A stretch of 64,000 nucleotides of DNA. Source: Aphrocallistes beatrix (taxonomy: Eukaryota; Porifera; Hexactinellida; Sceptrulophora; Aphrocallistidae). The stretch is from positions 992,001-1,056,000 of the forward strand of contig OY725489.1 of NCBI GenBank assembly GCA_963281255.1, written 5' to 3'. Within the stretch, counting starts at the first letter, position 1. The number at the start of each line of letters is the position of its first letter. Shown here piece after piece: positions 5,642 to 52,282 of the stretch. The notes under the pieces are model-generated. The model saw nothing but the letters and a program-made list of their open reading frames with translations, was not told the DNA's origin and did no database searches. The position numbers and the translations under genes are program-made.

Positions 5642-6021
5642 GATTAATTAATCACGTTGACGGACATTTCGTCGCCGGACAATTCGTTGCTGGACATTTC
5701 ATCCTCTGAACACTGTTACCAGACAATGTGTAGCGGAATATTCATCTCTGTTTCACGGGAATTTCGCCTCATTAGAGACTAAATAAACTGGTACTAATGT
5801 ATAAGGAACGGAAGTTGAGGGTTTTGGAGTGGAATATGTTTAGAAAAATAGGGGTGAAAATGAGGGTTTTTGATTAAGAAATGAGTAGGTGCGAAAGGGG
5901 TATTTCAGGGGACGAAAGTTCCGCTACCCGTTGTCCAGTAACTAATGTTTAGATGACGAAATGTTCGTGCGACGAAATGCCCATGCGACGAATTGTCCAT
6001 GCGACGAATTATCAATTAATC
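5642..6021. mobile_element. Foldback element with 15-bp tandem arms
   Basis: The left arm (about 5642-5710) repeats GGACATTTCGTCG-type monomers; the right arm (about 5950-6021) repeats the reverse complement, CGACGAAATG/CGACGAATTGTCC. The outer ends GATTAATT and AATTAATC are inverted. The interior has no open frame. This has the architecture of Drosophila Foldback or Tetris-like elements, whose inverted arms are themselves tandem repeats. Confidence 0.7.
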
Positions 6022-6046
6022 AAGGAGTAATACACAGTATGTAATA

Positions 6047-6347
6047 CAGTACACCTTCGTTAATCCGAACATTATTTGAATCCGAACACCAACAGATATA
6101 ATCTTATTCGTTATGAATCAACTTTTATAATATTCTATCTTAACAATAAGATTGAGAGACCTCCTTAAAACTTAAAAGCAATCAAAACGGAATAATCATA
6201 ACCCTTAATGTTCTAACATAACACATTATCGTTAATTCCCCTTTGAATTAATATTATTTCATTAATCGGAACGAATTCACTGATCCGAACGGGGTTTTTT
6301 CAACCTTTGGTACAGAGCTGTTCGGATTAGCGAGGGTGTCGTGTACT
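6047..6347. mobile_element. Pogo/Tigger-like MITE, copy 1
   Basis: The left end CAGTACACCTTCGTTAATCC is inverted at the right end (GGATTAGCGAGGGTGTCGTG); TA lies outside the left end. A second copy lies at 48926-49209. The terminal pattern of CAGT, CCTCG and TAATCCGAAC resembles pogo/Tigger-derived MITEs. It has no coding capacity. Confidence 0.7.
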
Positions 6348-7756
6348 ATGACTTGGAAATAACTAGCAAAATATATTGCATTCTTCGAAATCAAAATGTA
6401 TACAAATGCATTGGTAACAGGAATTGTAGAGAAAATGTGAATTAAGGTAGTGCAATGGAAAATCATTAAGTGTATCAAAGAAATGGATCAGTTCATATCA
6501 GGCATACTAAGCTATTCATACATGGAAACTGATATTACTGATATCATGCTAACATAGCTTGATACAGGGAACAACTTCCCACAAACAATCCAATCTGTTA
6601 ACACAATGCTAGAATCATCTTCAGATAGCTGAATAAGCAGGACTTCTTGATAATGGAATGGAGATAGGAGTGGCTACCAGGTATACTAAAACATAAATTA
6701 CCATCTTTAGATTCATCAAATTCATAGGTGCACATTCTTAATAGATTGTTAAATGAAAATCATTTCATCTTAATGTTTGGTTAGGAGCGTTCACCGAAGG
6801 CATTGATGATCATAACCTCACAGATTACGTCAGAAATTATGATGCATGGCACCAATACGAACAGTTCCAGTTTTGAATAGGAAATTCACTGGATTGACAT
6901 AGTATCATAAAAGCATCTGGCAATTATCAGTTGGAACGCATTGAGTAAAAAGATGCAGTCCTAACAGTAAGATAGTAAGACAGGGTAGAGTAAGGAGGGG
7001 TGAGATGCAAAAGGAAATAGAGAGAAGAGCTAGAATGCTTAGATGGTTAATTAACATCGTGCTTGAGATTATTAAAGAAGGGGCTTACAATTTAGGATTG
7101 AACAGAGAATTTTCAAAATATAACTGTCCAGAATCGAGCTTATGGCAAAACAATATTTCTCATTTCTGCCGTATGCAAATGACAGCTAATTTTAAAAAAA
7201 TGACGCTACTTCCATCAACCTATGATTTAAGATGTGATAGGTTAAGCTCGCAATAGTATTTTGCTGTTTTATTAATTATTAAAAACATAATTTGGAGCTA
7301 GAATAAATGACTAAGTCTTGCCACAAATAATTGAGCAAATCAAGCGAATGATACCAAAGTGATTCTTGCAGAAAATATCTATCAACAAACCATATATAGA
7401 GTTGGTTCGAGTTATTCAATATGCTAGAACTGACTGTGCTAATATTAGTCGTGCGATTCTCTAATAAAATTGGATCCATTATTGCGTAGGCCAAGGACTC
7501 TTCTATATCATAAAAACTACAACGAATCATTATGACTGAGAATTATATATCCTAATTTAGTAGTTTATAATGAGTGTAGAGCTTTTATTATTAACAAAAC
7601 AAAAGCACTAGCACAAATCTCATCCATCATTCCAAGTAAGGAAATGATGATGTTGGCAGGAAATAGATATTTCATTATACAAAGTAGAGCTTATATCATA
7701 ACCCGACTCCGACCGATACGAGTCTTGTTATAACCAGAATTAAGAAGCAGCTGAAT
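6348..7756. other. Intergenic, no supported gene
   Basis: AT-rich spacer between the tandem proteases. Open frames here are short, resemble nothing I recognise and have no splice-supported extension. Confidence 0.55.
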
Positions 7757-7766
7757 TATATAAATA
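7757..7766 (+). promoter_or_regulatory. TATA box of protease 2
   Basis: TATATAAATA 57 bp upstream of the start codon, matching the arrangement in protease 1. Confidence 0.7.
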
Positions 7767-7813
7767 GGTCGAATGGGTATACGACTACAATTCAGAATCA
7801 ACTTTACTGAACA

Positions 7814-10584
7814 ATGAAGACAATCATCAATATACTCCTGCTAGCACTGCTAGCTAACCTCCACGTTACAACAGCTCGCGACTACATTATGGTGATGAGA
7901 GATGGGACACCAACGAGTGAAATGGACAATGTCATGGACATAATGTGTGAAATGTCACCAGGAGAATGTAGTAATAGGGACGATTTCAGAAGGACTTACA
8001 GCCTCATGAACACTATTACTGGGCCAATGAGTGACAATGCTGTGGAAATGGTGAGTAAGCTTATTCAACACATGATTCAGTGCATTGGTAGCCAAGTTTA
8101 TGTTGCAATTATCAATTCTTAGGCAAGACACATGGACAGCGTGAGCTATATAGAGGAGGATCAAATAGCGACAGCAGCAGATGCTGTAATCGACTTGATC
8201 CCCCCAATCCCATACAATGAATTCCCCTCGCACCTGATCGTAGACCCGAGAGAAAATAGATTTTCTGCTGCCACTTCCGACAGTCCTTACAGCACCGACA
8301 GAAACAATCTTGACTTGATAGATGAGCCTTGCGACAGTTGTATAAACGGTGAATATAACCCTGAATCGACCGGAGAAGGAACGGACCTTTATATCCTGGA
8401 TACGGGGATAGAATACAACCATATAGATTTCAATGGCAGAGCCCGCTATGGTGGTTTTGATGCGGTTGATGAAGCTCAGAATCAAAACCAGAGAGGGAGG
8501 GATTGTCATGGACACGGGACACATTGTGCAGGAATCGCAGCAGGGAGATTTAGTGGTGTGGCAAAACGTGCGAATATATACAGCATCAGAGTGTTGGATT
8601 GTAACAGCTTCGGAGCATTCAGTGGGATTATACGAGCACTAGACCATGTATATAACAGACACATGAATAAGCTATCTCTGTAAGTTCTTGCTATGTTTCG
8701 TTAAAATTAACTATACATACTCACTATTACTCAACATACAAACGTGTATGGCCGTGTTTAATAGCATACAAATTACTCAACTATATCGGATAATAGAGTT
8801 ACAATTGGAAATCACACCATACACCGATACGATGATATATTAATCTGATATATTAATCTCCTCTAGTTCTACTAACGATTATCGAGGCAGTGTAGTGAGC
8901 ATGTCGCTGGCTGGCCCAGTGGTACAAGCAGCCAATGATGCGGTCTGCAGACTGGTCAGGGCAGGAGTGGTGGTGGTGACTGCGAGTGGGAACTTCCGCA
9001 GAGACGCATGCAACTACAGCCCTGGTTCAGCTGGATGCCATATCAACGTGGGAGCACACTACTACACTGAGAGGGACACTCCCACTTGTATTCTAGATGT
9101 GTATTGGTTCTCATCCACATCCACATCTCCAGGGAATAACTATGGACGTTGTGTAGACATTCTGGCGCCAGGACAGTATGTACAGAGTGCAAGCTATCTG
9201 GCCCGTGATCGTAAGTGATAATTATATCCTAGGTATTGAATGCCATTTTTGAATGCCATACAGAGATTCTATTACGTCTGATTATCCTAAGGTTACGTGT
9301 CAATGAGTGGAACATCTATGGCCTGTCCGCACGTAGCTGGAGCTGCAGCTCTACTATTGCAGGAAAGCCCACGCATGAGTCCGGCGAGAGTGAAGGCAAT
9401 TCTGGAGGCAGACTCCTGCTCTGAAATAAACGAGAGAAGAATGCCATCCGAACTTAGGGGACTAACACCGAATAGACGATTGAGAGTAACAAGAAGTAAG
9501 TATGAGATTCTTGATAGTACAGAATCAAAGACTGGATATGCGAGCTAGAATTAGAAGCTTGGTAGTTTTAATACACAAATATTATGACTTGTTTATTATA
9601 GATAGAGGTGAACAAATCACTACCACTACAACCACAACACCTACCACTACTACCACCACTTTTGCACCCGTCCCAGCCACTCCTTCTCCCCCGGAATGCG
9701 TCCTCTGTGCGTTTGATGCTGCACGTGGTAGTATGATTGAAGAAATAGAAGTTGTAGTCAGAGAGATTCAAGACCCGTCCTTCATTAGATATGGTCTGTA
9801 TTACGAACTATTAAATAAACTAAGGTATAGACAAAAAATCGTAACTAAAGTCTCCATAACGACAATCGAGGGAGTTGGCGTGTTATACACACTGATTTAC
9901 AGAAAGATTCCAAAAGGCCAGATCAGCGATTTCAGATATATATTGAACAATAAGAACGGTATTCCATACCAAGATATTGATGAAGAAATTCACGATCTGA
10001 ACCAAGATTGTTTTCCGAAGACAATCATCCCAATAGGTGATAATCTAGTGTACGTGCTAGCTGACTGCGGTTCACGTTGTAACGATAATGAATTCAGACA
10101 GGCCAACTTTACCACAGTTCCAGAACAAATATTTGATCCATTCACAATCGATAATTTAAATTCAGAAACGAAGGCTACGTTTGATATCAGCATAGCACCA
10201 AACAATAATCAGGTCTACGTCTCCAATACAGTAAAGAACAACCCTGCATGTGAGTGCTTCAACTATTACAATATCGAGAAATCTGACCTGACAACATTCT
10301 CTGAGACAATCGGAAGCGGAAGGAAACTCGTCGTACAAGATATAGAGGCGGTCTACTATCAAAGCAAACTCAGTTTTACAGTAACTCTTTGCATACCTGA
10401 TTGCTACACCGGAACTAGCTGTGTAAACGAGGTACTCAACAACCCAGTCTTCATCGACCTCACAGAAGAAAGGATGCAATCGATGATAATAAGCTTAAGG
10501 AGGTTAGAATGGGAACCCATTGCTGTGGTCGGGTATCAAGATGAGGGAATAAAACATGCTATCTCTTTCATCAGAGTACGCTAG
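7814..10584 (+). CDS. Secreted subtilisin-like (S8, proteinase K type) serine protease 2
   Basis: Five exons join in frame to 774 residues: 7814-8050, 8123-8679, 8867-9210, 9292-9495, 9602-10584. Exons 3 and 4 have exactly the same lengths (344 and 204 bp) and phases as in protease 1. It has a signal peptide (residues 1-21), a propeptide, Asp172 (YILDTGI), His210 (HGHGTHCAG), oxyanion Asn307 and Ser388 ([11 protein letters not shown]), then a Thr-rich linker and a Cys-containing C-terminal domain. It is expected to be an active secreted endopeptidase. Outside exon 3 and the active-site blocks the two proteins differ substantially, so this is not a very recent duplicate; exon 3 is nearly identical in DNA, which points to gene conversion. 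Confidence 0.9.
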
Positions 10585-10714
10585 TCCTCCAACCTGATCT
10601 CACCATCACCAATTCCTTAAATTATGTGTACACTAGTTACACCCATTATCTAAACATGTTTGTACCTATATAATATGTGCAATATTGTCACTAAAAAGTG
10701 CAATGCCTTGTATT

Positions 10715-10720
10715 AATAAA
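10715..10720 (+). promoter_or_regulatory. Polyadenylation signal of protease 2
   Basis: AATAAA 131 bp after the stop codon, the same distance as in protease 1. Further AATAAA words follow at about 10745. Confidence 0.6.
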
Positions 10721-10749
10721 TGTATTTGTATATATCAAAGTGAAATAAA

Positions 10750-12240
10750 TAAATTACTCCTACTGTCATGTCTATGCTAATTACGTAATCAAAATATCTT
10801 ATTTGAATACGGTAAGAAGCAGCCATATTCTTTACAAGCAAACTTCGAGTAGAGATCGCAACGGGCCTGAATATCTGGCACTTTTTGGCCCGATCCCGAA
10901 TGTTTCTCGGCTTCATGGGTACATTGGGACTACCTGTCCTATCCGACCTGATAGCTTCAGGCAATATTTTGGAATCCCTGATTCTTGAGACAGCGAGAAA
11001 TCTCGCGAACCGCGATGGTATGCCGATGCTAAACTTCTATGTCCAAATCGTATACTCGTTTTGTCAGGAAATGAATTTGTGAATCCTATCGGATCGGAGT
11101 CGTTCAGGTTAAGATAGCAGTCTAATCCGAACAGTTGGAAAACTTAAACTCAATGCCCAATCGTTGTCTAGCCTATTGTCAACTCCCATGTTATTTATTA
11201 GTGAACTATCATGAATAGTTAAATATATATGGATTCGTACAACTTAAGTAGAGAAACATTTCAGTACGGGATACAGATTAATCGTGACAGACCACCGCAG
11301 TATCAGAACCTTCCGAAACATATATTTCGTGGCAGGTCAAAGAAGGGGCTTTGAGTCCATACAAGCGATCGGAAGTTCCCCGATGGGACCACAAAAGCCA
11401 CGACACCACTGGGCCGAATATAAATACTATATTCTGTTCGACGTTTATTTTAGGAACTACGTAAATAAATAAATTTTGGTATAGTATTGTTGCAGTATAT
11501 AAATAATAACGGTTTTTTATCTATTTTAAGTAATACGTAATACTATAATAAAAGCGACCTACCTTATTTGCATTCGGGTGAGGGTAGACTGAATACATTT
11601 TAAGAATTACTTAAATAATGTAGATGAATTCTAAGTATTCGTAATATTTATACTGTACTGGGAAAAAGTTAACTATCGAATCAAGTGTATAGATAATCGC
11701 CGTGTTATTCGAACAATGTGACTCCTAACATATTTAACTGTGTATTTGTGGGTGGAGAGAACAATAGGATTGTGCATAGCAGAGGAAAGTTTTGAGGTAT
11801 CAAGAAAAAATTCCAAGAATAAAATATTAGGAATCAGGTACTGTTCAATGAACAGTTCTATATTTGGGACTGATACTATTGTAATGAATGAATGAACTTC
11901 AGGTGGCATGCAATAAATAGTTCAGTATTATATCTCAAATATTAGAATTACAATACAATATAATCGAAGAAACATAGAATTAAGGGCAATTGTGCACCCT
12001 TATTCAATTATTGGACCATGGATGAAGTAGTATGCTATTTCAGAACTGAGAAACTTATTTCCTGGCAGGATAAGCAGGGTTGTCGGAGTTCTTTCGATTG
12101 CCTAACTACGATCATGGCTGCACAACTTTTATGAGCTTACGACGGCCCTGTAAACCATATAAATGTACTACTACATATACAGACAATGTACTAAAGACTA
12201 TGTAATACGAATACCTCTCCCTGAATTTTGAGCACGAAAA
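10750..12240. other. Intergenic, no supported gene
   Basis: A less AT-rich patch at about 10850-11100 has short open frames on both strands without recognisable domains, and may be decayed repeat DNA. I see nothing else. Confidence 0.5.
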
Positions 12241-12272
12241 AAAACAAGCACCGGGGTTTTAAGGGGGGGGCT

Positions 12273-12832
12273 GCATTAGTTCGAATCTGTATGTAGGCGT
12301 TAGTTCGAATCGAATTTGGCTATATAGGCGTTAGTTCGAATAGATTTTAAATGTAATCTGTCATTGAGTGACATTGGGAAGAGATATTTATAAGGACTGA
12401 GGGAAAAGCAGCATTTTCTGCTGAGAATAGTAGAAAATTGAGGATGAAAAAGGCATTTCTGAACGAAGGGGTTGAGTGCCATAATGGAGAGCTATTTATA
12501 AGAACTGAGGGAAAAGCAGTATTTTCTGCTGAGAATATGAGAAACTTTTATCAATTGTATTAGATGAAATTCGTACCTCAAAAGTGCGTCGTTAACTTCG
12601 GTGTTAGCAACAAATAATACGTTGGTCAAATATTCGAACTAATGACAGTACATTGAAAATCTATTCAAGCTATTGATTGACATTATTTTGAAAATCAATT
12701 CGAACTAATGACTACATACATAGTTAAATTATATTCGAACTAACGCCTACATAGCCAAATTCTATTCGAACTAATGACTACATGTCAAATTCTATTCGAA
12801 CTAACGCCTACATACAGGATTCGAACTAATGC
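12273..12832. mobile_element. Foldback element with TTCGAAC-type tandem arms
   Basis: The outermost 15 bases (GCATTAGTTCGAATC, 12273-12287) are perfectly inverted at 12818-12832. The left arm has about three monomers (GTTAGTTCGAAT with TATAGGC spacers); the right arm has six or more inverted monomers (ATTCGAACTAAYGMCTACAT). The interior holds a separate direct duplication at about 12380-12430 and 12487-12538. It has no coding capacity. The architecture is the same as the elements at 5642, 45154 and 51834, but the monomer differs. Confidence 0.75.
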
Positions 12833-13150
12833 ATGCGCCCGTTTTAAGGTGCATTAGCTTCTATGTATAGGAACTCTTCCGTTCTTAGACATTTTTTTCC
12901 AATTAAGTGGATTTCCCGATTAACTGTTGTCCTAATTAAGCGGAGTTAATAGTATATACATGTTGTAAGTTGTAACTAATATATTTAAAGTTGTGTATTA
13001 CTTTTAAGTAAAAATTCTACAAAGTAAGACCCTATATTAGCAATTGAGATTTCAAAAATACTTTTCAAACTGTTTAGTAATGGTGTTTAATCAAATTTGA
13101 ATATTTGTACGCTTCTAATTTCTTGCCGAAAAACCTAGAATGTACTACAT

Positions 13151-13315
13151 CAGGGCTGTCCAACTATATTTACTTCGGGCCGCAACTACTTCATTCCATT
13201 TAGTGGCGGGCCGCAAAACAGGGGCGTGCACGCGGGATGGGTATGGATAGAGGCATTTTGGACGCAACGCGGGCCGCACAAAGCAATGCCGCGGGCCGCC
13301 TGTTGGACAGCGCTG
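13151..13315. mobile_element. hAT MITE with 8-bp target duplication
   Basis: Its 165 bp are bounded by CAGGGCTGTCCAAC and the inverted GTTGGACAGCGCTG, and flanked by perfect TACTACAT duplications at 13143-13150 and 13316-13323. The interior is GC-rich with GGGCCGC repeats. The terminal sequence and 8-bp duplication are typical of hAT superfamily elements. Confidence 0.88.
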
Positions 13316-13349
13316 TACTACATCAAGCACATAATAAAGGGATCACACC

Positions 13350-14053
13350 TAGGGTTTTTAATCCTGGGATACTGATGATTAATGCAGTTTATATATCACA
13401 CATGTGTTGTAATTGCTATTGGTTTGTATATACTACCGGGTTTCCCATAATTGGATGAAATAGTGATTCAATATATATATATAACACTTTGATTAATATA
13501 TACAAAGTTGTGATACTAATAATATGGTCAAATTAAACTTGCAAGGACCTTTCTGATGGATTATAAAAGTGTTTGTATGTGACTCTTACACTTCAAATTT
13601 ACAAATATATATATGGTGGCTGAGAAAAACGTTTTTCAAAATTTTGCAGGTGCACCCATTTGGAAATATTTCAAGCGTTCCCTATGTGGGAAATTAGCTC
13701 AGTGTAATTCATGTAGTAAACAGCTTAAGTGCGAAGGTGGATCGACCAAAGGATTACACATTCATTTAAGAACGATCTATGCAACAAGTTAAGAACAAGG
13801 CTGAATGATAGCACTTTAGACACACTTGTATTTATTAGGAACAACCTGAAAAAAGAAAAGAAATAGAGATATTAATTCATTATTCATTACTCATATTATT
13901 TCCGTAATTCACAAATAGTCACGTTATATTAAGCTATATATAAATACTAGCATACCAATTCTTGAAAATTACTAATCCCGGGATCCCGGGATTCAGAATT
14001 TGTCAATCCCGAAATCCCGGGATTGGAATTTTAGACCGGGATTAAAAACCCTA
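13350..14053 (+). mobile_element. Deleted hAT element with BED zinc-finger remnant
   Basis: The element is flanked by perfect 8-bp duplications ATCACACC (13342-13349 and 14054-14061). Its termini TAGGGTTTTTAATCC and GGGATTAAAAACCCTA are inverted. Inside, 13652-13792 encodes a 46-residue BED-type finger (IWKYF, then CNSC, then GLHIHL) preceded by an acceptor-like TTTTGCAG and closed by TAA; the last zinc-ligand His is apparently replaced (TIYAT). BED fingers form the N-terminus of many hAT transposases. The RNase H-like catalytic part is absent, so this is an internally deleted copy. Confidence 0.85.
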
Positions 14054-14211
14054 ATCACACCAAATTGATCGAAAACGGATTGTTAGAATTCTCACGGACG
14101 GATTCATGCAATGAAAGCACCTCCAACCTCGATTATCCAACAGTCTTGGTAGTTAAGTGGATGTCAGTATATTTGAATTTAATCGTTTAGCGATACTCAC
14201 CAGGTTAGAGG

Positions 14212-14333
14212 TGCATACATGCCAACTTGAGCCATTATAAAAGCGGGATGTGGTGGTGAATTTGGTGGGATGCAATAGGTATATATAATTTTTAAAATTT
14301 GGGCGAAATTTCATGTAAAAGCAGGATACTCGT
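14212..14333. repeat. End of an interspersed repeat abutting the gap
   Basis: The stretch beginning CATACATGCCAACTTGAGCC and running through AAAAGCGGGAT recurs inverted at about 24829-24872. Shared words such as TTTCATGTAAAAGCAG also match near 24730. It runs directly into the N gap, so the gap probably hides the rest of this repeat. Confidence 0.6.
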
Positions 14334-14533
14334 NNNNNNNNNNNNNNNNNNNNNNNNNNNNNNNNNNNNNNNNNNNNNNNNNNNNNNNNNNNNNNNNNNN
14401 NNNNNNNNNNNNNNNNNNNNNNNNNNNNNNNNNNNNNNNNNNNNNNNNNNNNNNNNNNNNNNNNNNNNNNNNNNNNNNNNNNNNNNNNNNNNNNNNNNNN
14501 NNNNNNNNNNNNNNNNNNNNNNNNNNNNNNNNN
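14334..14533. other. Assembly gap of 200 N
   Basis: Exactly 200 unknown bases. They truncate the C-terminal part of the E2 gene on the minus strand. Confidence 0.99.
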
Positions 14534-14948
14534 TCCTCGCGTTGCTTAGGAAATCATCATAATCTTCAGACCCGTCGAACTCCGAGTTGAGAGGGTCGCC
14601 TATCTCTGGATTCTTCAGCAGGAACAGTAGCCCCATGGCCAGGTCAATGAGATCCATGTCAGAGGTCCAGTCATCGAACATGGAGAAGCAAACAGACCCG
14701 TCCTCAATGTTCGGATGCAGTATTTTAGTCTCAGAGAATACATTCGGACAACCGAATGGGTAATCAGAGGGATCGTATATTAAAAACTCGAAATGTCCGT
14801 TCTTATAAGGCCCGTCTCGTGGCTGGAGCATGATGTATATAGTGCTGAGGTCGTCTCCCATCTTGTCCTGCTGCACGACTATCTCCCCATTTGACATGGT
14901 GTTGACCTTTTTCAGCAGCGTCATGAAATCTTTGTTCCAGTCGGGCAT
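14534..14948 (-). CDS. Ubiquitin-conjugating (UBC/E2) domain protein, C-terminus lost in gap
   Basis: The start codon is at 14948; 138 residues are readable before the gap. The UBC fold is visible: an N-terminal helix, a YPFGCP-type segment where E2s have YPxxxP, HPNI then a Cys in GSVCFSMFDDW at the position of the active-site cysteine, and the helix and loop LLFLLKNPEIGDPLN typical of E2s. Transfer of ubiquitin or a ubiquitin-like protein is therefore plausible. The sequence around the Cys is unusual and acidic, and I cannot assign it to a named subfamily; the C-terminal half (PEIGDPLN) looks somewhat like UBE2M/UBE2F. The last helices lie in the gap. Confidence 0.8.
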
Positions 14949-15653
14949 GTTGGCTTAGGATGGCTAAGTTATGAAATTAAAAGAATTCAACTGTGTTTTA
15001 TAGTCGAAAGAAATCTATTTTTAGCACAGTAGATAAGGTAAGGAGAATTGTACTAAATATGGTCAGAACCCAGGATGGAACTTTATAATGATGTCACTCT
15101 GCTCTCTGTACTAATTATAGAACAGTATTAGAAAGCTCAACAGTTCTATTATTAGCTTCAAAACAGCCTACTAGTACAAGGTACTTCTTCACAGTTTTCA
15201 AAACAACATGTGGAGTACATAAATTAATGCAAGCTGTCATATACGTTGGAGAATCGTAATTGTATTTCAAAGATATGTATTGTGAATGTTTCAAATGCCT
15301 ACTAAGTTAGCATCAGAGGCTTGGAAGATAATGGTGTCTGCAGAGAACATATGTGTAGCTTTGTTAACTATACTCTAGTCATATCATAGTGTGTTTTACA
15401 ATCTTATTACGTATTCATAATACGTTTCTATGGTTATTTCATCATGTCTGAAGAGCTAATTATTATGACTAAAATACTACTATTGCATATCTCACCAAAT
15501 AATTCCAAAGGAGCGGGGACGAAACCAACATAAAGTCTCAAACATAAAAACGAAGAAGGTCAATATACCCAGTTACATAAAAACATACTGTACCGTGAAA
15601 TACTACAAATACATATTGCAAAGGTAATTATTCGAACTACAATAGTATACATA
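14949..15653. other. Intergenic, nothing recognised
   Basis: AT-rich spacer between the BRD8-like gene's 3' end and the E2 gene. No gene, RNA or clear repeat is visible. Confidence 0.55.
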
Positions 15654-17981: not shown

Positions 17982-18227
17982 CTCAACTAGTCTCCTCAAA
18001 CAGTGTTCTAGCAGTGCTATAATTCGGAATTAGAAAGAGAAAATCGAGTCCATTCATCAGCAAACTTGAATGTAGAGATATATAACAGAATTCGAAGAAG
18101 CTAATCTGAGAAATTAACATATCTTTGTACTGATGCAAGTACAATAGCTGCACAGCACAGCTTATTGAATTGATTATAGACAAACTTGTACTGTATCACC
18201 TCCAAACGTCTTCATGGTTCCAATATT

Positions 18228-18254
18228 TCCCCAAGCAAGCGAAGCGCGCTTGTT
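18228..18254. repeat. AGCGCGCTTCGCTTGC motif, inverted short copy
   Basis: AAGCAAGCGAAGCGCGCTTG upstream of the BRD8 start is the reverse complement of the terminus found at 39748 and 61948. No longer similarity was seen. Confidence 0.5.
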
Positions 18255-18347
18255 AAGTATTAATTCTTATAAACTTCTGACGAATTGTAGGAGTATTCGG
18301 ACTAGAATATTGAAAACAATTAAAATAGAAAACAAAGAACTTTTAAA

Positions 18348-24872: not shown

Positions 24873-24896
24873 TATCTCGTACTAGGACCCCGTACC

Positions 24897-31989: not shown

Positions 31990-32046
<57 letters not shown>

Positions 32047-38743: not shown

Positions 38744-39243
38744 ATGACGACTCAACTATCAGCCGTAGATAAAGATAGTTTCTTGACACAGGTGGAGACA
38801 GCTCGTGGTAGACTGAGAGAGTCAGTGTCAGAGCTACGAGTGAGTCTCCAGCAGAGAGAAGAAGAACTGTGTGGAGTTAGATAGGCTAGAGAGAGAATAC
38901 ACAAGTAGAGTGAGTGGGTACAGAGATAGGATGGCTTCTCTTACCGCCATACAGTCTGGTATAGAGGAGCAGTTCAAGCATGGAGAGTTCGAAGATCTGA
39001 AGAAATCCCTCCTCTCTGAGACAGACAGGAAGATAGAAGAGCTAGAGAGAGAGTACCCACCTCGTAGTGTGGAGTTTGTGTGTGAAGAGGAGAGAGAAGA
39101 GTATGCGTGCGGCTGTCGAGGCTCGTCTGGAGCTGAATCACGGAGAGGATCCTCTGGTGGAGCCTAGGGCTGTCTGTCTGGATGGAGAGGGGAGGGTGCT
39201 AGTGCTCTGTAACTACAAGGAAACTATGCTGCAGATATTCTGA
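38744..39243 (+). pseudogene. Degenerate coiled-coil/NHL gene, propeller deleted
   Basis: The 5' part reads as a coiled-coil (MTTQLSAVDKDSFLTQ onward, with VETARGRLRESVSEL), then shifts frame near 38870, continues as LDRLEREYTSRVSGYRDR, and shifts again near 39100. It ends with the last NHL blade only (AVCLDGEGRVLVL, then LQIF and stop), the same ending as the two intact NHL genes downstream (LQIF, LKIF). About 200 residues of propeller are missing. Two frameshifts plus the deletion make it a pseudogene. Confidence 0.8.
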
Positions 39244-39442
39244 TACTTGACCCTACCTCATCACTGATAGTAATATAGGAATTCTTTATTGTTCAATATA
39301 ACACTGTTATCATCATGGTATTATACGCTATTAGAAACCTACAAATTTGTTCTACGTACTCAATAATTACATTCCTCATTTTTCCCTTAAGATTCTTACA
39401 TTATTGTTCTATTGATTAGCTCAAATAGGAATAGAATAGCAG

Positions 39443-42400: not shown

Positions 42401-45400
42401 TGGTGGTAAACTGCAAATTCCAACCTCATTCCCGCACGAAAGTCTTTTTCACCAATTTTTTAATTTTGACCTCTACACCGTCATTTAATTATTTAAACCC
42501 CCGGATGGCTTGGGGGTTTTTCTATTTATAGTAAATACCCCGAATGTATATGGCTTCCCAGTCCAAAATGGCTTAAACCGGAAATGACGCGACACATTCC
42601 AGGGGCAACGGAGGGTTTTAACGTTTTAAAATTCAGATTTGTCTATCCCTCAGGTATCCGTGGTGGATTAAGGGGGGGGGGCGGATGGGGCGGTCGCCCG
42701 GGGCCCGAGCCTAAAGGGGGCCCTATACAAAGCTGTAATATTTGAATTGAGAAATTTGTTGCAGTATATTGTTTGAGTAGTGAAGCAATAACAATGATAA
42801 TGATTGTATAATTGAGTTTGTATTGAGAGCAGTATTGAGAGTGATGTACTGAGACAACTAGACTTTTCACCGATAATTATGGATTTTAGTAATCTGAAGA
42901 GTAGGAAAGGCCTATATAATGCCACTCTAAGGATTATTTTATTCTATAAGTAATACATGAATAATTACGTAATTAAAATAATTAAATAGTAATATTGAAT
43001 CTACGTACAATAATTTTTATAGCACAAGAGATGGTAATGAATAATAATGCAATGATGATCACAAAGGACCCTGTAGGATTATATTCGGGGGGTGTCCCTA
43101 AAGAAACGCCTAAAGGCCCGTGGTTGATGTCCGCCCGGGGCCCAATATACCCATAATCCATCTCTGTCAGGTATAAAACTCATTTTCATCTATTTTATTT
43201 TCTTTGAGTGAATTTTAAATAGTCAGTCGAAGTAGTTTTTTTGCCGCCTAGGCTGTTAAATCAATTAGACCGAAAAACCGACTTCGACTGTACAATCATC
43301 CCTGATCAGTTTCACTAATAGTGTTGCCAGCAAGATCTGTGAAGTTATCTGAAGGGGAGATTTCTCTCCGATCTAAACCTGAGTGCCAGAAAAGTCTTGT
43401 AAAATCCAAAAGTTTTATACTCACCAATCCCTCGAAAATTTTCCCTGGACTTTGGGATGGATTTTTTTCGTTTCCCCCACTTTAAATCCCGGGAGAGGCA
43501 AATATGAAATGTTTAAAAGATGTGCACACAGACGTTACAATATGAATACTTAAGCCTGGGCTAACTTAATCATTTTCTAATACATTATCCGGTGATTGTG
43601 TCTTCTAGAGTGTTGACAGGTGGCACCACCTGTCACAAGCTACGCGTGCTGCCTGAGACGGGAGAAGTGAGGCCTTTCTGCCTGGGAGCTGCGCTACGAG
43701 GAGTCAGACTGGACAAGACACGTTATGATTCTCTCATTAGCTTGCAAGAGAAGCTGCATCATAATATCTGTAGAGAAAGGTGAGTGAGTTCACTGTAGTA
43801 GATATATGATATTTTAATTTTATGTGTGTTTTATACGAAAATCTCGGGGGAAGGCTGGAATCAATTCTTCCTATAATCCGTTACAATTGAGAATATGGAA
43901 TTTCTTAGTGAATTGGTAATACCTGAATACTGATATCAGTAGTTTTATTTCGAAATCACCTGAAAAAATCCCAGATTAATTTACTTATATTTTCAATAAT
44001 TGCTCTCAAAATGTTGGTAGCCTTCAAATCTCTTCAAACTCAAACTCACAATTTAGTACGTATGGATATAGGAAGAAGAATGTTTAAAATTCGTAATATT
44101 AATTGTGAATCTGCATGCCATTCCGGTTTTATGTTTTCGCAATTAATTTAATGGCGTAACTACCTGACAATGGACGCAGGTTGATTGGCTACATGTGAAA
44201 ATGAACCTCTACTCCCATTGAATTTTTAGATATATCTAAAAAATGTGGTTATTTTAAATTCAGAATTGTTTAACTAGTCATAATATCTCAGATTATCTGT
44301 ACATTCCTGTTTCCCTGGCACCAGATTCTTCGACATAATCTACATACTCACACCTGTTCAATACTGAGAGATTGAATGGTCAATCCATTTCGGGAAATCC
44401 TACTCCATTCAATTATTTAGAATGCTACCGTGAACAGAGAGAATTCATAAAAGCATACACTCATTATTACATTCAAACTGCATTAAATGTCATGGCAGTT
44501 CTGATAATTGCTTAGCAGCGCATTCCTCGGTTTCATCCAAATATTGCTCGTATTTTGATGATATGTGAGATATGTCTGAACTAATTGATTATGTGCTAAC
44601 ATAACCTCCAGGATACATTTTGAATCTTAATGAACTTTTCGTAAGCAGAGTTTAAATTCCAATTATTTTCTGGAATGTTGCTTTCAAAAACATTTTATTC
44701 AATATAAGTATGTGGAACATATGATCCGTCAAAACTTCATCTGTTACATATTAATGGTGCTTATAGTATAGAGTTACAAATTCATTCGTTGGATGCATAT
44801 ATTTACCATATGAGACTTCTCCCATATGGTTTAGCTGTAAATCCATTTACGGAGTGCTATCACTTGCCTACACGCTCATAATTAATTGAAATCGGACGCT
44901 TTCCACTAAAGGACTTGTCTAATTATATAACGAGCACATGTTAGAATCTGTTCTCACTTCCGTCCTACGTAATATTGGATGGAGACTATTATAACAGTTA
45001 TGTGGAAGTAATACATACTCATAGATCAGGTGTGTTCACGATATTGCTATTTGCACAGCTGCTGAGAGGTTGCATATCGATTCAGTTTCAAAGTGCATGT
45101 GTTATTGCCAATGGCAGCATTGGGAATAATTTAGAGTAGTTATCAAAACCTTTCGAAGTAGGAATAAGACCTAAAAACTGCTAAGTAGGAATAAGACCTA
45201 AAAACTGCTAAGTAGGATTAAGACCTAAAACTGCTAAGTAGGATTAAGACCTAAAATGCCACACAGTACCCCCCTCACGAATAAAATGCCCACTTTCGCT
45301 CTCTCCTCCAATTTTAGGTCTTACTCCTACTTCACACGTTTTAGATCTTACTCCTACTTCGTAGTTTTCAGATCTTACTCCTACTTCGAATGGTTTAGGT

Positions 45401-48400
45401 TTTATTCCTACTCTTCGATGATATTTTAGGTCTTATCCCTACTTCAACTTTAGGTCTTACTCCGATTCCCCGATGTGATCATTCAATTGATTGCACTGCA
45501 CTGAGTGAAGTAACGATATACCAAATTATGTCAGTTAAATTCATGTAGTGTTTCCTATTCCGACCTAATTTCTAGACTCAGTCAGAGGTTGCTGTTAATA
45601 TATCAAGCAATTGAGGCAAATAAAACACAGAGAATACATTTAGAATGAAATTTTCTTCGAATAATTCTGTCTCAAAAACGATGTTCTCAATCTGACCTGT
45701 ACTGTCCCTGTTCCTATACTATAAATACATACCAAGTTAGATCCATTATATTTTTCGTTTATTTAGAAATTAAACATCATCTACACCAGTGTGGAGGGTA
45801 ATTCAGAGGGTAGAATTTATTATTTATCTATATTTTCTTTAATTTATAGACCTTTTAAAACCTTGACATAACTCTCAAAAACCAATGAATTTTTATCTAT
45901 AATGAGAGCAATTGAGCTTTGTTCGATAACGTGAATAGATCTGAACTCGCGTTAGATTTGTCCCGGCACTGTTATATGAAAACGCGAAGTCAGCACATGT
46001 TGGCTTAATACCACAGGATGTTATCCAGCTAGAAACAGTTCTGCTCTCAATATGTCGCGAAATGTGTTGTATTACGCGAATTCATCAATTATTCTTGTCT
46101 TCTTGGAATTGTACAAAGCGTGGTATCAGTATTGTGCAACCATTTTACACTGAAACCAGTTGGAACAATGCTGTGGTAACAAATGAATGGCCTTGCCATA
46201 TGACTGACCTTCATCATCATTATTATTTCTTAACAATATTAGAATTTAATTTGTATACTCTACTCCCACCTCATTGACAGTTCAAGTAAGTATAAGCTAA
46301 TATCTTGTATATTTGCAGTCTAATAAATATGGCTATCACCTAATGTGTTCACTATCTCCATCTGAACAGACAGCCATTCTGTTCCGTTATCTAAACAAAT
46401 AATTATGATACAGATTGTACCAATTACTTTTAAATTTAATAACACAACCACAAAATTCAGTAATATTCTGTACATAAGTTGACTTGTATCAATTATTCTT
46501 ACACTTTTTATCTAACGAAGCTTACAAGCAATGAGATCAGTTAACATAGCCGCATCTGTCCATGTAGATTAACTATGGTGAGGTTACCTCGAACAAATGT
46601 TGTGTATTAATGTGATCATTCAAATATCGTTCTGGAAGGTTGTACTGCATGTAATCTCTCCTGAATAACTTCACACCGTAGAAAGTAAGTATTACATGAC
46701 CGTAGGAAGCGTACGGCAGCTAAGGCCATGGCCTGGTTTACCACTCTTTTTGTAAACTGTATTATTCTATGCGCCTTATCACTCTTGATTAACATATTGG
46801 CAATGGAACACTTTTTATGAACTTCCGACGGCAATGTATTATGCAAATATTTGTGGTAGGACGTTGGCTTCGATCGGGATACACAACCTCGATTCGATAG
46901 AGGGACCTTTCACATACGAGGCTCTCCCCCCGGAGGAGATCAAGTTTGTTCCTCTCAATCAGACGCAAGAGTACACAGCCAAGGATCTGATGCGACTCTA
47001 CAAAACAGATCCACATCTCAAGCCGTATCTGCACATCATAGAGAAGAAACCGAGGTAGACTAGTCACTGGCACAGCTGTTAACTAGATTATGGTGAATGG
47101 GGAGGTTATTCACTACCACAGGCTTGTCCACTAACCAATATAAATGTTACTGAACATATTTGGTGTAATTGCAAGCAGCTTTTGCTTGTTTTAAGCCTAA
47201 AATTATTGTAACAATGTTAAACATATGAAAAAGTTCTTAAGGTCAAATTAATAAATACATAACTTGCCTTAAATTTTTGTAAAAAAAAACAACATTAAAA
47301 GAAAGAATGCTCCAACACAGAATTTCATATCTGACTTGACTGAGGAAGTATACTCTCTCAAACAGCATGGTTGCTTTTGGTTAGGTCTTACTGAACTAGA
47401 GTCAGCATGACTTGACTCTTGTAGCTTAGTTGTGCACGGAACATATGAACTGTAGAATACGATCTAAACCATGTGTAGCATGCCCTTATATGGTATTCAT
47501 GTGGATAAATGTGACAGGGATCATCATGTAGAGTTCATAACACTCATGCGAAGTTGCGTTTGACAACATAAATATTCTCGTTATACACAGGTATCCTGTT
47601 ATCTATGACAAGAACAGAGTTCTGCTCTCTCTGCCTCCGATTATAAACGGCAACCACACTCGTCTGGATGAGAACACAAGGAATCTCTTCATAGATGTTA
47701 CCTCCACGGACCTGAACAAGGCCCATATTGTCCTCAACACGGTCGTCACTATGTTCAGTGCGTACTGTGACAACCAGTTCACTGTGGAACCATGTGAGGT
47801 ATGCACATATTTTTTGGTTACAAAGTTAGTTTATTCCATCGAATGTTAGCCGGAGAGATTATTAATTTTTATGATTTCTCAGAGAATAATTATTCGGGGC
47901 AATTGTAATTGTCAATATACGTTGAGCTCAAACCAGGGATTTGATAGAAAAAGCAAAGAAGTTCAACACACATATTTACAATTTTTATGTTCTCGTTTTA
48001 AAACACGAAATTTAATCAAAGAACTGCTAAGACAAATGTTTTGAGGATTTAGAGAGTAAAATTTTTAATTTTGTTATCGGAGTAATTGGACCTAAAAAAG
48101 CTGCCCTAATGGCTTGTTACGATCATAATACAGTACAGGAGCGGATTGGGCTAGTTAGGCGGCTCTACCAAATTTCCCGAGAGCGGCCCACCACTCCACC
48201 CGACCACTAACCCGCTGGCCAACCGACCCACCTGCTCATCGACCCAATGGGCATTTTCCCGGTGTCCCGATGGGCCAATCTGCCCCTGATACAGCATCCA
48301 TCTTCTTATGACATAACAGACACGCACTATGGTAGGTGGAGCATCCTGACGGTAGCAAGAAGACATACCCCGACCTCAGCTACCGAACTGAGACCATCTC

Positions 48401-49736
48401 TCTCTCCTACCTGAACCAGGGATTGGGACTGAGTGAGGACGCAGACACAGTGTCGCGCCTCCTCACTCGTATGTGTCTAACTTCTCATCCTGACGAGAGC
48501 GGGGAGAACATTGTGGTTAGTGTTCCCCCCACTCGAGCTGACGTCATCCACCCGTGTGACGTGATGGAGGACTATGCTATCGCGTACGGGTACAACCGAA
48601 TCCCGCGTGCACTCCCCCAGATGAGCACCACAGGGGGACAGCAGCCGCTTAACAAACTGACGGACCTTCTAAGATTGGAGATGGCGCAAGCTGGCTTCAC
48701 TGAGCTGCTCACATTCACCATGTGCGCTAGGAAGGATATCTCGGATAAACTGAACATTCCTCTTAGTCAGGTCAGTCCATTCATTTATTTATAAGAGATG
48801 TAGCTTGAAAAATAAATGAGTGGCAAAGGATGAACCAAAATGAAAGAGTTTTCCATAGGCATGTAGGAGAATGGCTAACTCTTCCATTTTGAAAACTTTT
48901 GAAAAGGCTGTATCAAATACTATTACAGTACACCCTCGCTAATCCGAACACCCAGAATATAATTTTATTCGCCTTAATGCTTTGAATCGACGTTTATAAT
49001 CTTATATCTTTCAATAAGATTGAGAAATCTCGTTAAAAAGCAATCATAACAAAATAATATCTTTAATATTCTAACAATACAAATTTATATACCTAGTTAA
49101 TACCCAATATCCCATTGAATTAGTGTTATTTTACTAAAACAAATTCACTAATCCGAACGATTTTTTTAATCATTGTCATAGAGCTGTTCGGATTAGCGAT
49201 GGTGCACTGTACTTAGGACTACTTGGACCATGGATGCTAATTACTCATGAAATCATTATGTCCCATCTCCACAGATCCCAGCAGTCCATGTCGCCAATCC
49301 CAAAGCCAGCGAGTTCCAAGTAGTCCGAACTTCTCTCCTCCCCGGCATCCTCAAGACCCTGAGCTCTAACCTGATCTTCCCCAAACCGTTGCGCGTATTC
49401 GAGATATCAGACGTGGTGCATAAAACCGCGAATCGAGACGTGCAGGCAGAGAACTCACGACACCTTTGCGCTGCTTACTACAACACCACAGCTGGGTTTG
49501 AGGTGATTCACGGGCTGCTGGAGCGTGTGATGGTGCTCGTAGGTGTGAACAGGGGGAGAGGGTATGAACTCGAAGCTACAGAAGACCCATCTTTCTTCCC
49601 TGGTAGGTGTGTACAGGTTCAACTGAATGGTAAGAGCATAGGAAAATTCGGTGTGTTGCATCCTACAGTCCTGGCGAACTTCCACTTACCCATGCCTTGC
49701 TCTGTGCTGGAGATTAACATTGAGCCCATGTTGTAA
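39443..49736 (+). CDS. FARSB: Cytosolic phenylalanyl-tRNA synthetase beta subunit
   Basis: Six exons join in frame to 577 residues (human about 589): 39443-39705, 43609-43779, 46860-47054, 47591-47798, 48336-48770, 49275-49736. Diagnostic blocks in order: [17 protein letters not shown] and [14 protein letters not shown] (N-terminal), [59 protein letters not shown] (B5 domain), then LLPGILKTL and FPGRCVQVQ in the catalytic-like core, ending SVLEINIEP. With FARSA it forms the heterotetramer that charges tRNA-Phe; the beta subunit binds tRNA and has an editing region. Introns are up to 3.9 kb and hold at least five transposable elements. The start follows an in-frame region without other ATGs. 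Confidence 0.95.
39748..39812. repeat. GC-rich terminal motif (AGCGCGCTTCGCTTGC family), solo copy
   Basis: ACAAGCGCGCTTCGCTTGCT, then TGCGCTGCGCGGC and a GGACACTGCGTGTC palindrome. The same order is found at both ends of the 61948-63421 element. Only the terminal 60 bp or so are shared here. It lies in FARSB intron 1. Confidence 0.65.
41602..42479. mobile_element. Inverted-repeat element, interrupted by a hAT insertion
   Basis: Left arm: CGTAGAGGTCAAAATTG, then GGCGGGAGTGAAG and TTTGCAGTTTACCACC. Right arm, inverted: GGTGGTAAACTGCAAAT, then TTTTGACCTCTACACCG. A second palindrome inside (GACTGGTTTCGATTTTTGAA at about 41789, inverted at about 41913-41932) makes the structure nested. The hAT element at 42019-42303 is inserted within it. 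Confidence 0.72.
42019..42303. mobile_element. GC-rich hAT MITE with 8-bp target duplication
   Basis: The termini CATAGGCGTCGG and CCGACACCTATG are inverted; perfect GATTTGAG duplications lie at 42011-42018 and 42304-42311. The interior is rich in GGGCCCG/CCGGGC words, in sharp contrast to the AT-rich intron. Confidence 0.9.
42658..43166. mobile_element. hAT non-autonomous element with 8-bp target duplication
   Basis: Left end CCGTGGTGGATTAAG, right end (inverted) ATAATCCATCTCTG; perfect TCAGGTAT duplications lie at 42650-42657 and 43167-43174. GGCCCGGGG-type blocks near both ends flank an AT-rich middle. No transposase frame remains. Confidence 0.82.
45154..45470. mobile_element. Foldback element with GTAGGAATAAGACCTAAAA tandem arms
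   Basis: The left arm has four monomers of 26-28 bp (AAGTAGGAATAAGACCTAAA with ACTGCT spacers); the right arm has about six inverted monomers (TTTAGGTCTTACTCCTACTT and variants). The middle is about 65 bp. It is in FARSB intron 2. Confidence 0.8.
48136..48288. mobile_element. hAT MITE in FARSB intron 4
   Basis: The termini CAGGAGCGGATTGGGC and GGGCCAATCTGCCCCTG are inverted; the flanking duplications ATACAGTA and ATACAGCA agree at seven of eight positions. It ends 47 bp before FARSB exon 5. Confidence 0.85.
48926..49209. mobile_element. Pogo/Tigger-like MITE, copy 2
   Basis: CAGTACACCCTCGCTAATCC is inverted as GGATTAGCGATGGTGCACTG, with TA on both sides. The element is 284 bp, homologous to 6047-6347 throughout, in FARSB intron 5. 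Confidence 0.85.
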
Positions 49737-50206
49737 TAGCAATTTAGTGCAATTTTGTAGTCTATTGTGTAGTTCTATTAGATTTATTCTTTCAACTATG
49801 AACAAAATTCAGCTGAGACTAATAGCAGGATAATAGGGAGGATAATTTGTAACGGAAATAGTTAGTTGAATCAAAGCAAAAAAGTGCTACAAATAGCGGT
49901 GAATTAGTAGGAAAGCTGTGAGTAGGAATCTGGAGGGAAGGAGGCTTGTATCTTAGACTCTGCTACTATCAATTGAAATGCTGTTATAAGCTAACAGAAT
50001 TTATGTCTGCCTAACATACTTGTAAATAATGTAGATATCATGAGTGAGTGTCGAGTAGCAGATGTGAGTTGAGGTAACAAGGGTGTATGCACTTTATGAT
50101 CTGATTAGTTCATAGAGGTTTTATAATCTCAAACTATTATATTGTTTCAAAAAGATATCAATTGAGATTATTTGCAAGCAGTATAGCTTACTTTGAGTGG
50201 AATTGG

Positions 50207-51478
50207 ATGGAGAGTGTGAGTGCACATTTGAATACAAACTTCATTGATCAGATATCTCAAACTCGTAAAGCTATCCACGACGGCTTCAAACGGTCACATG
50301 AAAATCTCCGGATCAGAGAGAACTCACTCCTATCTCGAGTAGAAGAGATTGAGAAGGACTTTAATACGAAAACACAGGAAATAACCAAATTACTTGAAAC
50401 GTTGAACTCTACTAAATCTTATACCTCAGAAAACCTCATTTCTAATGAACTAAAATATGTTCAAGATATTTTCCACCAAGCAATCGATACAAAAGTTGAA
50501 AAGCTGCTAGCTAGGATGGACCACAAGATAGAGTTTGAATGGAATCCTGAATTCGAGGCTAGCATAGAAAGACTTGGGAGTATCAAGCGTAACAGTCTAC
50601 CTAACACTTCTCTCACTCACTCCTTCCTTCCTCGAGTCAAGCCCGTTGTTCCTGATTACAAAACTAAACGACTTCCTATTGCTTACTTCGGTAAGAGATT
50701 TACGGATAAGAAAGCTCCAGGAGATTTTAACAGTCCCAGGATTCTAGCTATTCACTATCAAACTGGAAACATTTACATAGCAGACAGTGACAACAATCGT
50801 ATACAAGTGTTTAACCACGAAGGAGCATTTCTATTCATGTTCAGTGAGAGAGTGGAGAATCCTACAGGAATTTGTATTTCCCTCAATAAAGTGTTTGTTA
50901 CACAATATGGCAGTAGCCGTATAAATGTGTACGAGCTAGGAGGTAAGCTATTGAAGAGTGTTGGTAGTATAGGGAGCGGCGAAAAACAATTAAATGATCT
51001 TTATGGTCTTGATATTTCCGCTGGAAATGCTATCTACGTATGTGATAGTTCTAACGATAGGGTTCAAATCTTGACAGAAGATCTCAAGTTCCATTCCATG
51101 CTAGGAATTGAAGTGTTAAATTCTCCACGTGACGTAAAGGTGATGAGAGACAGAGTGTTAGTGCTAGATCGTAGTGATCTGTGTCTGTCAGTATTCAACT
51201 CAGATCACGTTCTAACTAACAGAATCATAACACGTGGATTCGATGGACAAGTACTCAGTTCATTCTCTTTCGACGTAGATCGAGAAAATAACATTATAAT
51301 GAGTGACTATGCTAACTGTGTGACTGTGTTCAACCAGGATGGAGTCCAGATTCACAAGTTTGGTAAACGAGGTAAAGCTGTCGGAGATTTCAGTCGTCCA
51401 TATGGAATAGCACTAGATAACAAAGGTCGGATCATAGTCGTAGATCATAAGGGCACTGCTTGTCTACAGATATTCTAA
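50207..51478 (+). CDS. Coiled-coil/NHL-repeat protein A (TRIM-NHL-like, no RING or B-box)
   Basis: A single exon of 423 residues from the ATG at 50207 (the first in-frame ATG; codons upstream are not conserved in paralogue B). Residues 10-110 form a predicted coiled coil (SHENLRIRENSLLSRVEEIE). From about 170 to the end is a six-bladed NHL beta-propeller with typical blade motifs (SPRILAIHYQTGNIYIADSD, NRIQVF; RPYGIALDNKGRIIVVDHK). TRIM-NHL proteins are usually RNA- or protein-binding E3 ligases; here there is neither RING nor B-box, so ligase activity is not expected. NHL propellers often bind RNA hairpins. Its paralogue is at 53782 and a pseudogene at 38744. Confidence 0.88.
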   Translation: MESVSAHLNTNFIDQISQTRKAIHDGFKRSHENLRIRENSLLSRVEEIEKDFNTKTQEITKLLETLNSTKSYTSENLISNELKYVQDIFHQAIDTKVEKLLARMDHKIEFEWNPEFEASIERLGSIKRNSLPNTSLTHSFLPRVKPVVPDYKTKRLPIAYFGKRFTDKKAPGDFNSPRILAIHYQTGNIYIADSDNNRIQVFNHEGAFLFMFSERVENPTGICISLNKVFVTQYGSSRINVYELGGKLLKSVGSIGSGEKQLNDLYGLDISAGNAIYVCDSSNDRVQILTEDLKFHSMLGIEVLNSPRDVKVMRDRVLVLDRSDLCLSVFNSDHVLTNRIITRGFDGQVLSSFSFDVDRENNIIMSDYANCVTVFNQDGVQIHKFGKRGKAVGDFSRPYGIALDNKGRIIVVDHKGTACLQIF

Positions 51479-51833
51479 TAGCATCATAATTTTACGAAAT
51501 GCTATTCTCGTATCCATTCTTCACTTTGTGACTTAGGATTACAATATGGTGAAGAATTGTACAATATATTATGGTCAATTTCACTTATTTACTTGTAGAA
51601 GAACTTTGTATTCATTGTGATTGATCGACATTGCTATTTGCGTTTGTTCTATTTAAGAACATCTATACACTACTCTACCAAATGTTCGTACACCACAATA
51701 TTTTCCATACAAATAGCGATATTTATGGCATCCAATAGCATTGATGGGTAACAGATATACTTAATTTAGCTTCAGATTTGTTCTGCAAACTCGAATTAAT
51801 CACTCTATAATCTTTCAACTCAATGGATTGACT

Positions 51834-52282
51834 GAATAAGGCCGAATTTTCAAACTGGAATAAGGCCGAATTATTTCAAGACTGGAATAAGGCCGAATTT
51901 TCACAACTGGAAAGAGTCTAGTGATATGTACGTATGTAGTACTGAAATAAATAGGTGACAAACAAGTGAAATGTACATTTTGCTTAAAAACACCTCATCA
52001 GGCGAATTTTAAAAATATTCCACGTCAAAAACCCTTAAAATCTCTCCTGTTTCCCATCAAACCAAAAAATGCTCCCAACCTACCTTCTATTCTTTAGTTC
52101 ACAAATTAAAAACCATTCTTCCTCTAGATCCAAAATGATAATCCGACCTTATTCCAGTTTTGAAAATTTGACCTTATTCCAGTGTTGAAAATTTGACCTT
52201 ATTCCAGTTTTGAAATAATTCGGCCTTGTTCCAGTTTTGAATATTCGGCCTTATTCCAGTGTTGAAAATTCGGCCTTATTCC
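51834..52282. mobile_element. Foldback element with GGAATAAGGCCGAATTTTC tandem arms
   Basis: The left arm (51834-51905) has three monomers of 25-27 bp; the right arm (52130-52282) has about six inverted ones (GGCCTTATTCCAGTTTTGAA type). The middle is non-coding and AT-rich. It ends 285 bp before the U2AF1 start codon. Confidence 0.82.

Follow-up and report, generated by a model that had tools for sequence, protein, structure and literature searches.

Foldback Elements in the Window

The window considered here is a stretch of 64,000 nucleotides from the hexactinellid sponge Aphrocallistes beatrix (contig OY725489.1, C2:992001-1056000), taken from a genome assembly (GCA_963281255.1) of 100.5 Mb in 28 contigs. 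Among its open reading frames are matches to subtilase, RNase PH, tyrosine kinase, VPS9, NHL, THADA and CCCH/RRM domains, a set that suggests an animal genome. In addition, the window contains four small foldback elements, F1 to F4 (Table 1), and these elements and their relation to the Mutator-like elements (MULEs) of the same genome are discussed in this work. A recurring foldback design had been proposed for them in a sequence-only reading, with a tandem array of short monomers, a short middle and the same array inverted. This design was confirmed by Tandem Repeats Finder, which was used for the tandem arrays in the window and lists arrays at both ends of F1-F4; the opposite arm carries the reverse-complement unit, and the middle is non-coding. 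The limits originally given for the elements were correct to within 13 bases. Inverted arms of short tandem units, the hallmark of the foldback structural class, are present in F1-F4 as well as in several of the full-size loci described below.

Where both ends of a copy were located, no F1 unit lay beyond the midpoint in the wrong half, compared with 3 of 148 F2 units, 8 of 164 F3 units and 13 of 279 F4 units. The count of units per arm varies widely between arms and between copies, which fits slippage or unequal exchange inside the arms.

Table 1. Foldback elements of the window and elements with MULE sequence elsewhere in the genome; target duplications of the latter were found by script.
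Element	Position in window	Strand	Length	Units or ends	Target duplication
F1, non-autonomous foldback	5655..6013	+		15-16 bp units, core GGACATTTCGTC	9 bp, AATTAATCA, at 5646-5654 and 6014-6022
F2, non-autonomous foldback	12264..12840	+		units with core TTAGTTCGAAT	8 bp, GTTTTAAG, at 12256-12263 and 12841-12848
F3, non-autonomous foldback	~45154..45471	+		27-bp units, core GTAGGAATAAGACCTAA; left end degraded	none at its flanks
F4, non-autonomous foldback	51825..52290	+		24-27 bp units, core GGAATAAGGCCGAA	8 bp, AACTCAAT, at 51817-51824 and 52291-52298
F5, likely further foldback	277..787	+		inverted ends GAATACAGGTAAACCTCCC, short units near TTGCCGCTACTCGGAGG; dispersed	none at its flanks
L107, full-size element			2873 bp		GTAGTATT, exact
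L112, full-size element			2505 bp		GCCAAGTG, exact
L115, full-size element			2212 bp		ATAAAAAT, exact
L114, full-size element			2468 bp		CATTTAAAC, exact
L106, element			1160 bp		TTTCCAGA or longer
L105, element			1059 bp		GCCCTTACC, exact

Dispersal and Target Duplications

The genome was searched with each family, and the best 40 of 349 (F1), 143 (F2), 202 (F3) and 161 (F4) first-look candidates were scored. The next-ranked copies are 87% (F1), 88% (F2), 81% (F3) and 88% (F4) identical, and the copies are spread over many contigs. For comparison, 28 copies each of F1, F2 and F3, with the window copies included, and 20 copies of F4 were used. The ends of each family are imperfect inverted repeats, namely GGTAAACGGACA and GAATGGCGGACA in F1, GGGGACGCAGCATTAG and GAGGCGCATGCATTAG in F2, GAGTCGCYGGAATAAG and GGGGAATCGGAATAAG in F3, and GRGTTGACTGAATAAG and GGGAAAGCTGAATAAG in F4. 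The F1 end pattern occurs 304 times in the genome at no more than one mismatch, compared with 2 occurrences of the reversed pattern, and the exact end patterns of F4 and F3 occur 55 and 43 times, compared with 0 for the control.

Both ends were located by script, with end offsets of up to 3 bases allowed, in 17 F1, 18 F2, 13 F3 and 17 F4 copies; the script overlooked some ends that are visible by eye, for example in locus L078. An exact flanking match of at least 8 bases was found in 7 of 17 F1, 7 of 18 F2, 3 of 13 F3 and 16 of 17 F4 copies, while a control 150 bp downstream gave a match of at least 7 bases in none of 65 copies. Among the zero-offset matches of at least 8 bases, the length is 8 in nine of ten F4 copies and 9 in four of six F1 copies. 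F1-F4 are dispersed families with fixed, slightly asymmetric ends and with target duplications of 8 bp (F2-F4) or 9 bp (F1). Of the duplications at the window copies, that of F1 is the least certain, because the F1 ends are degraded here, unlike those of the family. Duplications of 8-9 bp were found in the F3 copies L089, L094 and L099.

These results bear on one of the two explanations that had been offered from the sequence alone, namely that repeated local replication slippage, followed by inversion, makes foldbacks at unrelated places without any transposition. The unit number does vary between arms, and the eight convergent inverted gene pairs of one MULE family described below indicate that inverted duplication does happen in these elements; however, the entire element, including its non-repeated middle, recurs at numerous unlinked sites, where it has the same ends and 8-9 bp duplications, which makes this explanation extremely improbable. 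The outcome that had been named as pointing to local rearrangement, monomers unique in the genome and no target duplication, was looked for and did not occur. As the source of the copies, local slippage plus inversion is refuted by the dispersal over contigs, the fixed ends and the target duplications; slippage may alter the number of units inside the arms.

MULE Genes between Inverted Arrays

MULE genes were identified with the Pfam profile PF10551, with which the best 150 of 168 candidates in the genome were scored, giving 121 matches. Eight MULE loci, L107-L114, were picked by hand for their long open frames before their flanks were viewed. They are not the eight longest, as frames of 500, 494, 478, 458 and 429 amino acids were passed over. 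For a locus to count as having arrays, an inverted match had to cover 35 bases or more, its arms had to be separated by 700 bp or more and to lie no further than 2.5 kb from the centre of the gene, and one arm or both had to fall mostly inside a tandem array of 10-60 bp period. Inverted short-unit arrays flank the gene in five of the eight loci (L107, L108, L112, L113 and L114), and the same rule was positive at 0 of 118 positions in the window. In L108, the left arm alone is a listed array, and the right arm lies near the edge of the region taken.

Two further loci, L105 and L106, were chosen since F1 ends lay near MULE matches. In both, MULE-like pieces lie within inverted arrays, with the unit CTTGCCGAAAGACAT around the first gene of L105 and the unit GATACGCGACAGTTC in L106, whose element includes a Pfam MULE match. 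Two open stretches from these loci gave no Pfam match and are similar to the L111 protein at 36% and 63%.

Several features place these genes among the MULEs. PF10551 scores above the cut-off in L107 and L109-L114 and just under it in L108. D249 and E372 of L112 are invariant across seven sequences, and the first D of the DDE triad is in the alignment, L108 being cut before that D. Target duplications in the 8-11 bp range of MULEs are present in the F1-F4 families and in L105, L106, L107, L112, L114 and L115. A C-terminal RING domain was also found above the Pfam cut-off within the MULE frame of L107, L108 and L112. In a tblastn search with the L112 protein, 24 of 89 rows (L112 included) extend to residue 535 or further.

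An inverted structure was also observed in a MULE gene itself. At L116 (C16:1992900-1996800), inverted copies of the transposase gene are 97% identical over 1004 bases, and the gene is now a foldback. In this MULE family, which is related to L111, eight convergent and no divergent inverted gene pairs were counted within 1.5 kb, at L116 and seven other places. The count is based on 80 merged copies from 107 rows, and same-strand pieces within 1 kb were merged first and are thus not countable.

Partners Sought for the Four Families

Elements that carry MULE sequence between the ends of a window family have been found for F4 and F2. For F4, L112 contains an intact frame of 545 amino acids, with MULE and RING domains above the cut-off, between F4-type arms; its ends are GGGTTGACTGAATAAG, which equals the F4 end, and GGGAAACATGAATAAG, with two differences from F4. 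A second F4 partner, L115, was chosen because an F4 end and matches to the L112 protein are 0.3 kb apart there. This element spans from GAGTTGACTGAATAAGG to TTATTCAGCTTTCCC, which are F4 ends, with an 8-bp duplication, and its interior contains four pieces like the L112 protein (36-57% identity), all with stops. For F2, L113 starts with GGGGACGCTGCATTAGTTCGAA, one base off the F2 end; its MULE frame of 432 amino acids is enclosed by ends and arms of the F2 type. A MULE domain with the DDE triad is present in the partners of both F4 (L112; L115 by similarity) and F2 (L113). An autonomous element with the same arms had been suggested earlier as something to look for; a partner with matching ends was found for these two families, and none for F1, among the ends listed, or for F3.

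For F1, the first places of the 304 ends were compared by eye with the MULE places, and only L105 and L106 came up among those listed. Neither is a partner. In L105, 2.3 kb separate an F1 end from the MULE gene, but this interval holds a hAT-like frame and no F1 right end was seen; in L106, the MULE gene sits in its own element with another unit. For F3, the 43 ends were compared with the MULE places in the same way, and none matched. An F2 copy beside a degraded MULE gene, L011, provides no partner evidence because the gene is outside the F2 copy. Within this copy, at about 1075-1500 of L011, an inverted structure with units like GGTTTTGTCCA is nested, which is perhaps another family of the same design.

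Frames that we take to be hAT-like adjoin MULE elements in L107 (2-1000) and L105 (3340-4955). hAT transposases likewise produce 8-bp duplications, and they might have moved the 8-bp families, with the MULE genes inside or nearby by chance. The hAT-like frames beside the MULE genes of L105 and L107 would agree with this, but MULE sequence lies within the F4-type ends of L112 and L115, each with its own target duplication, and the element ends start with GRG, which differs from hAT-type ends. Movement by hAT transposases is considered very unlikely on this evidence, no hAT search of the genome having been made.

Kinship and Core of the Arm Units

The sequence-only reading had assigned a different monomer to each element. 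This stands in part, as the units of F3 and F4 (GGAATAAGACCTAA and GGAATAAGGCCGAA) are related, with a local score of 10 compared with 5.6 +/- 1.1 for shuffled units and none of 200 shuffles scoring as high. Comparison of 11 units gave 55 pairs, and for 7 of these no shuffle out of 200 reached the observed score: L112-F3, L112-F4, F3-F4, L113-L114, L113-F2, L114-F2 and L106-F2, the last of which is left without interpretation. Nine arm units of one design were observed around MULEs or in small elements (F1-F4, L105-L108 and L114), some of them related. The proteins of L113 and L114 are 51% identical, and each is 32-33% identical to that of L112. In the few cases that are testable, it is suggestive that the similarity of units appears to track that of the transposases. 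F3 is likely linked to MULE elements through unit similarity. The F1 unit formed no pair with the 10 others among those with up to 10 of 200 shuffles as high. A 9-mer, CGAAATGTC, is common to the F1 unit, the ends of L111 and L116 and one L106 unit, and this weak motif match offers a suggestion of a link between F1 and MULEs.

Within the units, a core can be distinguished from a linker. Exact 8-mer counts in the core and linker are about 200 and 12-14 in F4, 117-129 and 4-24 in F2, about 100 and 14-17 in F3, and about 30 and 8-11 in F1. Core 8-mers thus exceed linker 8-mers about 3- to 30-fold, a contrast that is inflated because the linker used is one variant among several. The six commonest 10-mers were counted independently of any chosen unit. 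In F2, F3 and F4, every one of them touches the core; in F1, three of the six do, and the other three come from the F1 middle. The core of 10-14 bp is kept and the linker is variable in all four families, which would fit repeated binding sites for a transposase.

It has to be considered that the elements are moved by MULEs while the tandem units are not binding sites at all, being by-products of repair at the ends that were spread and homogenised by slippage. The wide differences in unit number among arms and copies are consistent with such an origin, as are MULE ends with one or two units, which occur at the right ends of L111 and L116. Against it stand the retained core and variable linker in each family and the case of Galileo, in which a DNA-binding domain binds several tandem-repeat sites, according to the accessible part of the source (PMC3688188). 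The by-product origin of the units is judged rather unlikely.

Origin of the Elements and Proposed Mechanism

Taken as a whole, F1-F4 are probably small non-coding derivatives of MULE transposons with terminal repeats of tandem units that serve as transposase binding arrays. The MULE origin of the four elements, considered by itself, is very likely, and the lineage involved is perhaps Phantom-like. One kind of transposon explains the shape despite the differing motifs because full-size relatives carry a MULE gene between arms of the same design. Of the four families, F4 has good support for movement driven by MULEs and F2 has support; such movement is likely for F3 and plausible for F1. The earlier idea of an array-reading transposase shared by many families fits at the level of one superfamily, the MULEs, whose enzymes would read the arrays; it does not hold for a single enzyme, as different genes go with different arm units, and partners are at hand for F4 and F2 only.

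Several points weigh against the MULE derivation with binding arrays. An exact duplication is missing from many F1-F3 copies, and L113 (2730 bp) has no target duplication by script. Among the F1 ends listed and the 43 F3 ends, none was found to belong to an element that carries a MULE gene. L109, L110 and L111, three of the eight MULE loci, and the second MULE gene of L105 fail the array rule, which was itself formulated after arrays had been viewed and was controlled with window DNA, not with other transposase genes. Finally, the N-terminal FLYWCH finger, which is above the cut-off in L110 and L111 and gave no match in L107 and L114, lies under the cut-off in the proteins of the F4 partner (L112) and the F2 partner (L113).

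In the proposed mechanism, each family would depend for its movement on the MULE transposase of its lineage. Binding to the constant 10-14 bp core that is repeated in each arm would be by the N-terminal zinc finger or by the transposase as a whole, as suggested by analogy with Galileo, and several bound units at each end would aid the assembly of a paired-end complex. The DDE core would then cut at the short asymmetric ends, and insertion with a stagger of 8-9 bp would give rise to the target duplication. Repeated sites would tolerate the gain, loss and drift of units, so that the core could change gradually with the transposase, resulting in one design with many units. Binding to the core, co-evolution of core and transposase, and mobilisation of F1 and F3 by MULEs are what we infer here.

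As a tentative possibility, MULE transposases and their repeated cores may form a natural series in this genome, the two diverging together, with a RING clade whose RING perhaps acts in transposition. RAG1 also includes a RING. In the MULE transposases, the RING may, for example, mark protein at the paired ends for removal.

Other Repeats and the Genome Searches

Two other repeats of the window, at 1-880 and 3640-3840, had been suggested as possible relatives of the four elements. The suggestion probably holds for positions 277-787 (F5), with inverted ends, short units and a dispersed distribution. Several F5 copies are 98-99% alike over the matched part and many are split near query position 186; the high identity and the split copies suggest recent activity and longer versions. 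On either side of F5, at window positions 2-97 and near 801-880, there are repeat units around CCGAATACGAATACTGATA, each of about 35 bp, apparently a further repeat family. The suggestion does not hold for positions 3640-3840, where Tandem Repeats Finder lists no tandem array. This is a different repeat with a length of about 190 bp. The best 40 of its 868 first-look candidates are 95-98% alike, and it is a young, abundant family. Among the matches listed in the genome searches, none lies on contig C5, whose numbering neighbours measure 6.1 and 5.6 Mb, and this contig may be a foreign replicon.

Comparison with Known Systems

Drosophila Foldback has long inverted repeats that contain internal tandem repeats. 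The other systems are compared here as they are described in the accessible parts of the cited papers. Galileo of Drosophila, like F1-F4, has long inverted repeats with internal tandem repeats, but its transposase is of the P type; its THAP domain binds several sites within the tandem repeats (PMC3688188). Tetris and DAIBAM of Drosophila virilis are apparently non-autonomous foldbacks with tandem repeats within inverted repeats, as here, although their repeats measure about 220 bp compared with 15-27 bp in the sponge elements (PMC4079207). The published foldbacks with tandem arms carry transposases from different superfamilies (PMC3169594).

Phantom MULEs have target duplications of 8-10 bp, terminal repeats of 18-613 bp or none, a FLYWCH finger, a SWIM finger or no finger, and a minisatellite in aphid members (PMC6446971). 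The sponge elements resemble them in target duplications within that range and in the repeats at their ends. In the available text of the same source, RING is mentioned in a MULE context only for a Ghost element, where it sits in a frame of its own, and for one Phytophthora element (PMC6446971). The phrase "C-terminal RING" was in none of the papers listed by a search of the open-access literature, and nothing relevant was listed there on MULEs or miniature inverted-repeat transposable elements (MITEs) of sponges.

Among published cases, the Mutator/Foldback family Tm1 of Meloidogyne nematodes comes closest (PMC3169594). Its arms contain 1-9 short units, mostly of 14 bp and unequal in number at the two ends, and short ends with asymmetric 7-bp motifs lie outside the repeat, with MULE-type target duplications; MITE-like copies occur together with a 2.5-kb copy that carries a FLYWCH-MULE transposase (PMC3169594). 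The sponge elements share the arms with unequal units, the asymmetric ends, the small and gene-bearing copies and the MULE-type duplications. In a comparison by eye, neither the end motifs of Tm1 nor its motif C (CGATTCAGTATCGC), as given in the accessible part of PMC3169594, was seen in the F1-F4 units or ends. Tm1 is described there as a single family that has a single unit and duplications of 9 bp. Here several families occur; their units are distinct, their duplications measure 8 or 9 bp, and several of the transposases, unlike that of Tm1, carry a C-terminal RING.

Foldbacks with tandem arms look alike, although the published ones differ in transposase superfamily; here one architecture and one transposase superfamily go together with differing arm units in a small genome. 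As small copies and gene-bearing relatives occur side by side, it becomes testable how the transposase and its repeated site change together, and also why arrays are kept in preference to single sites. The elements belong to the known Mutator/Foldback transposons, and what is less usual is the presence of many families of one design in a single genome and of a RING on several of their transposases.

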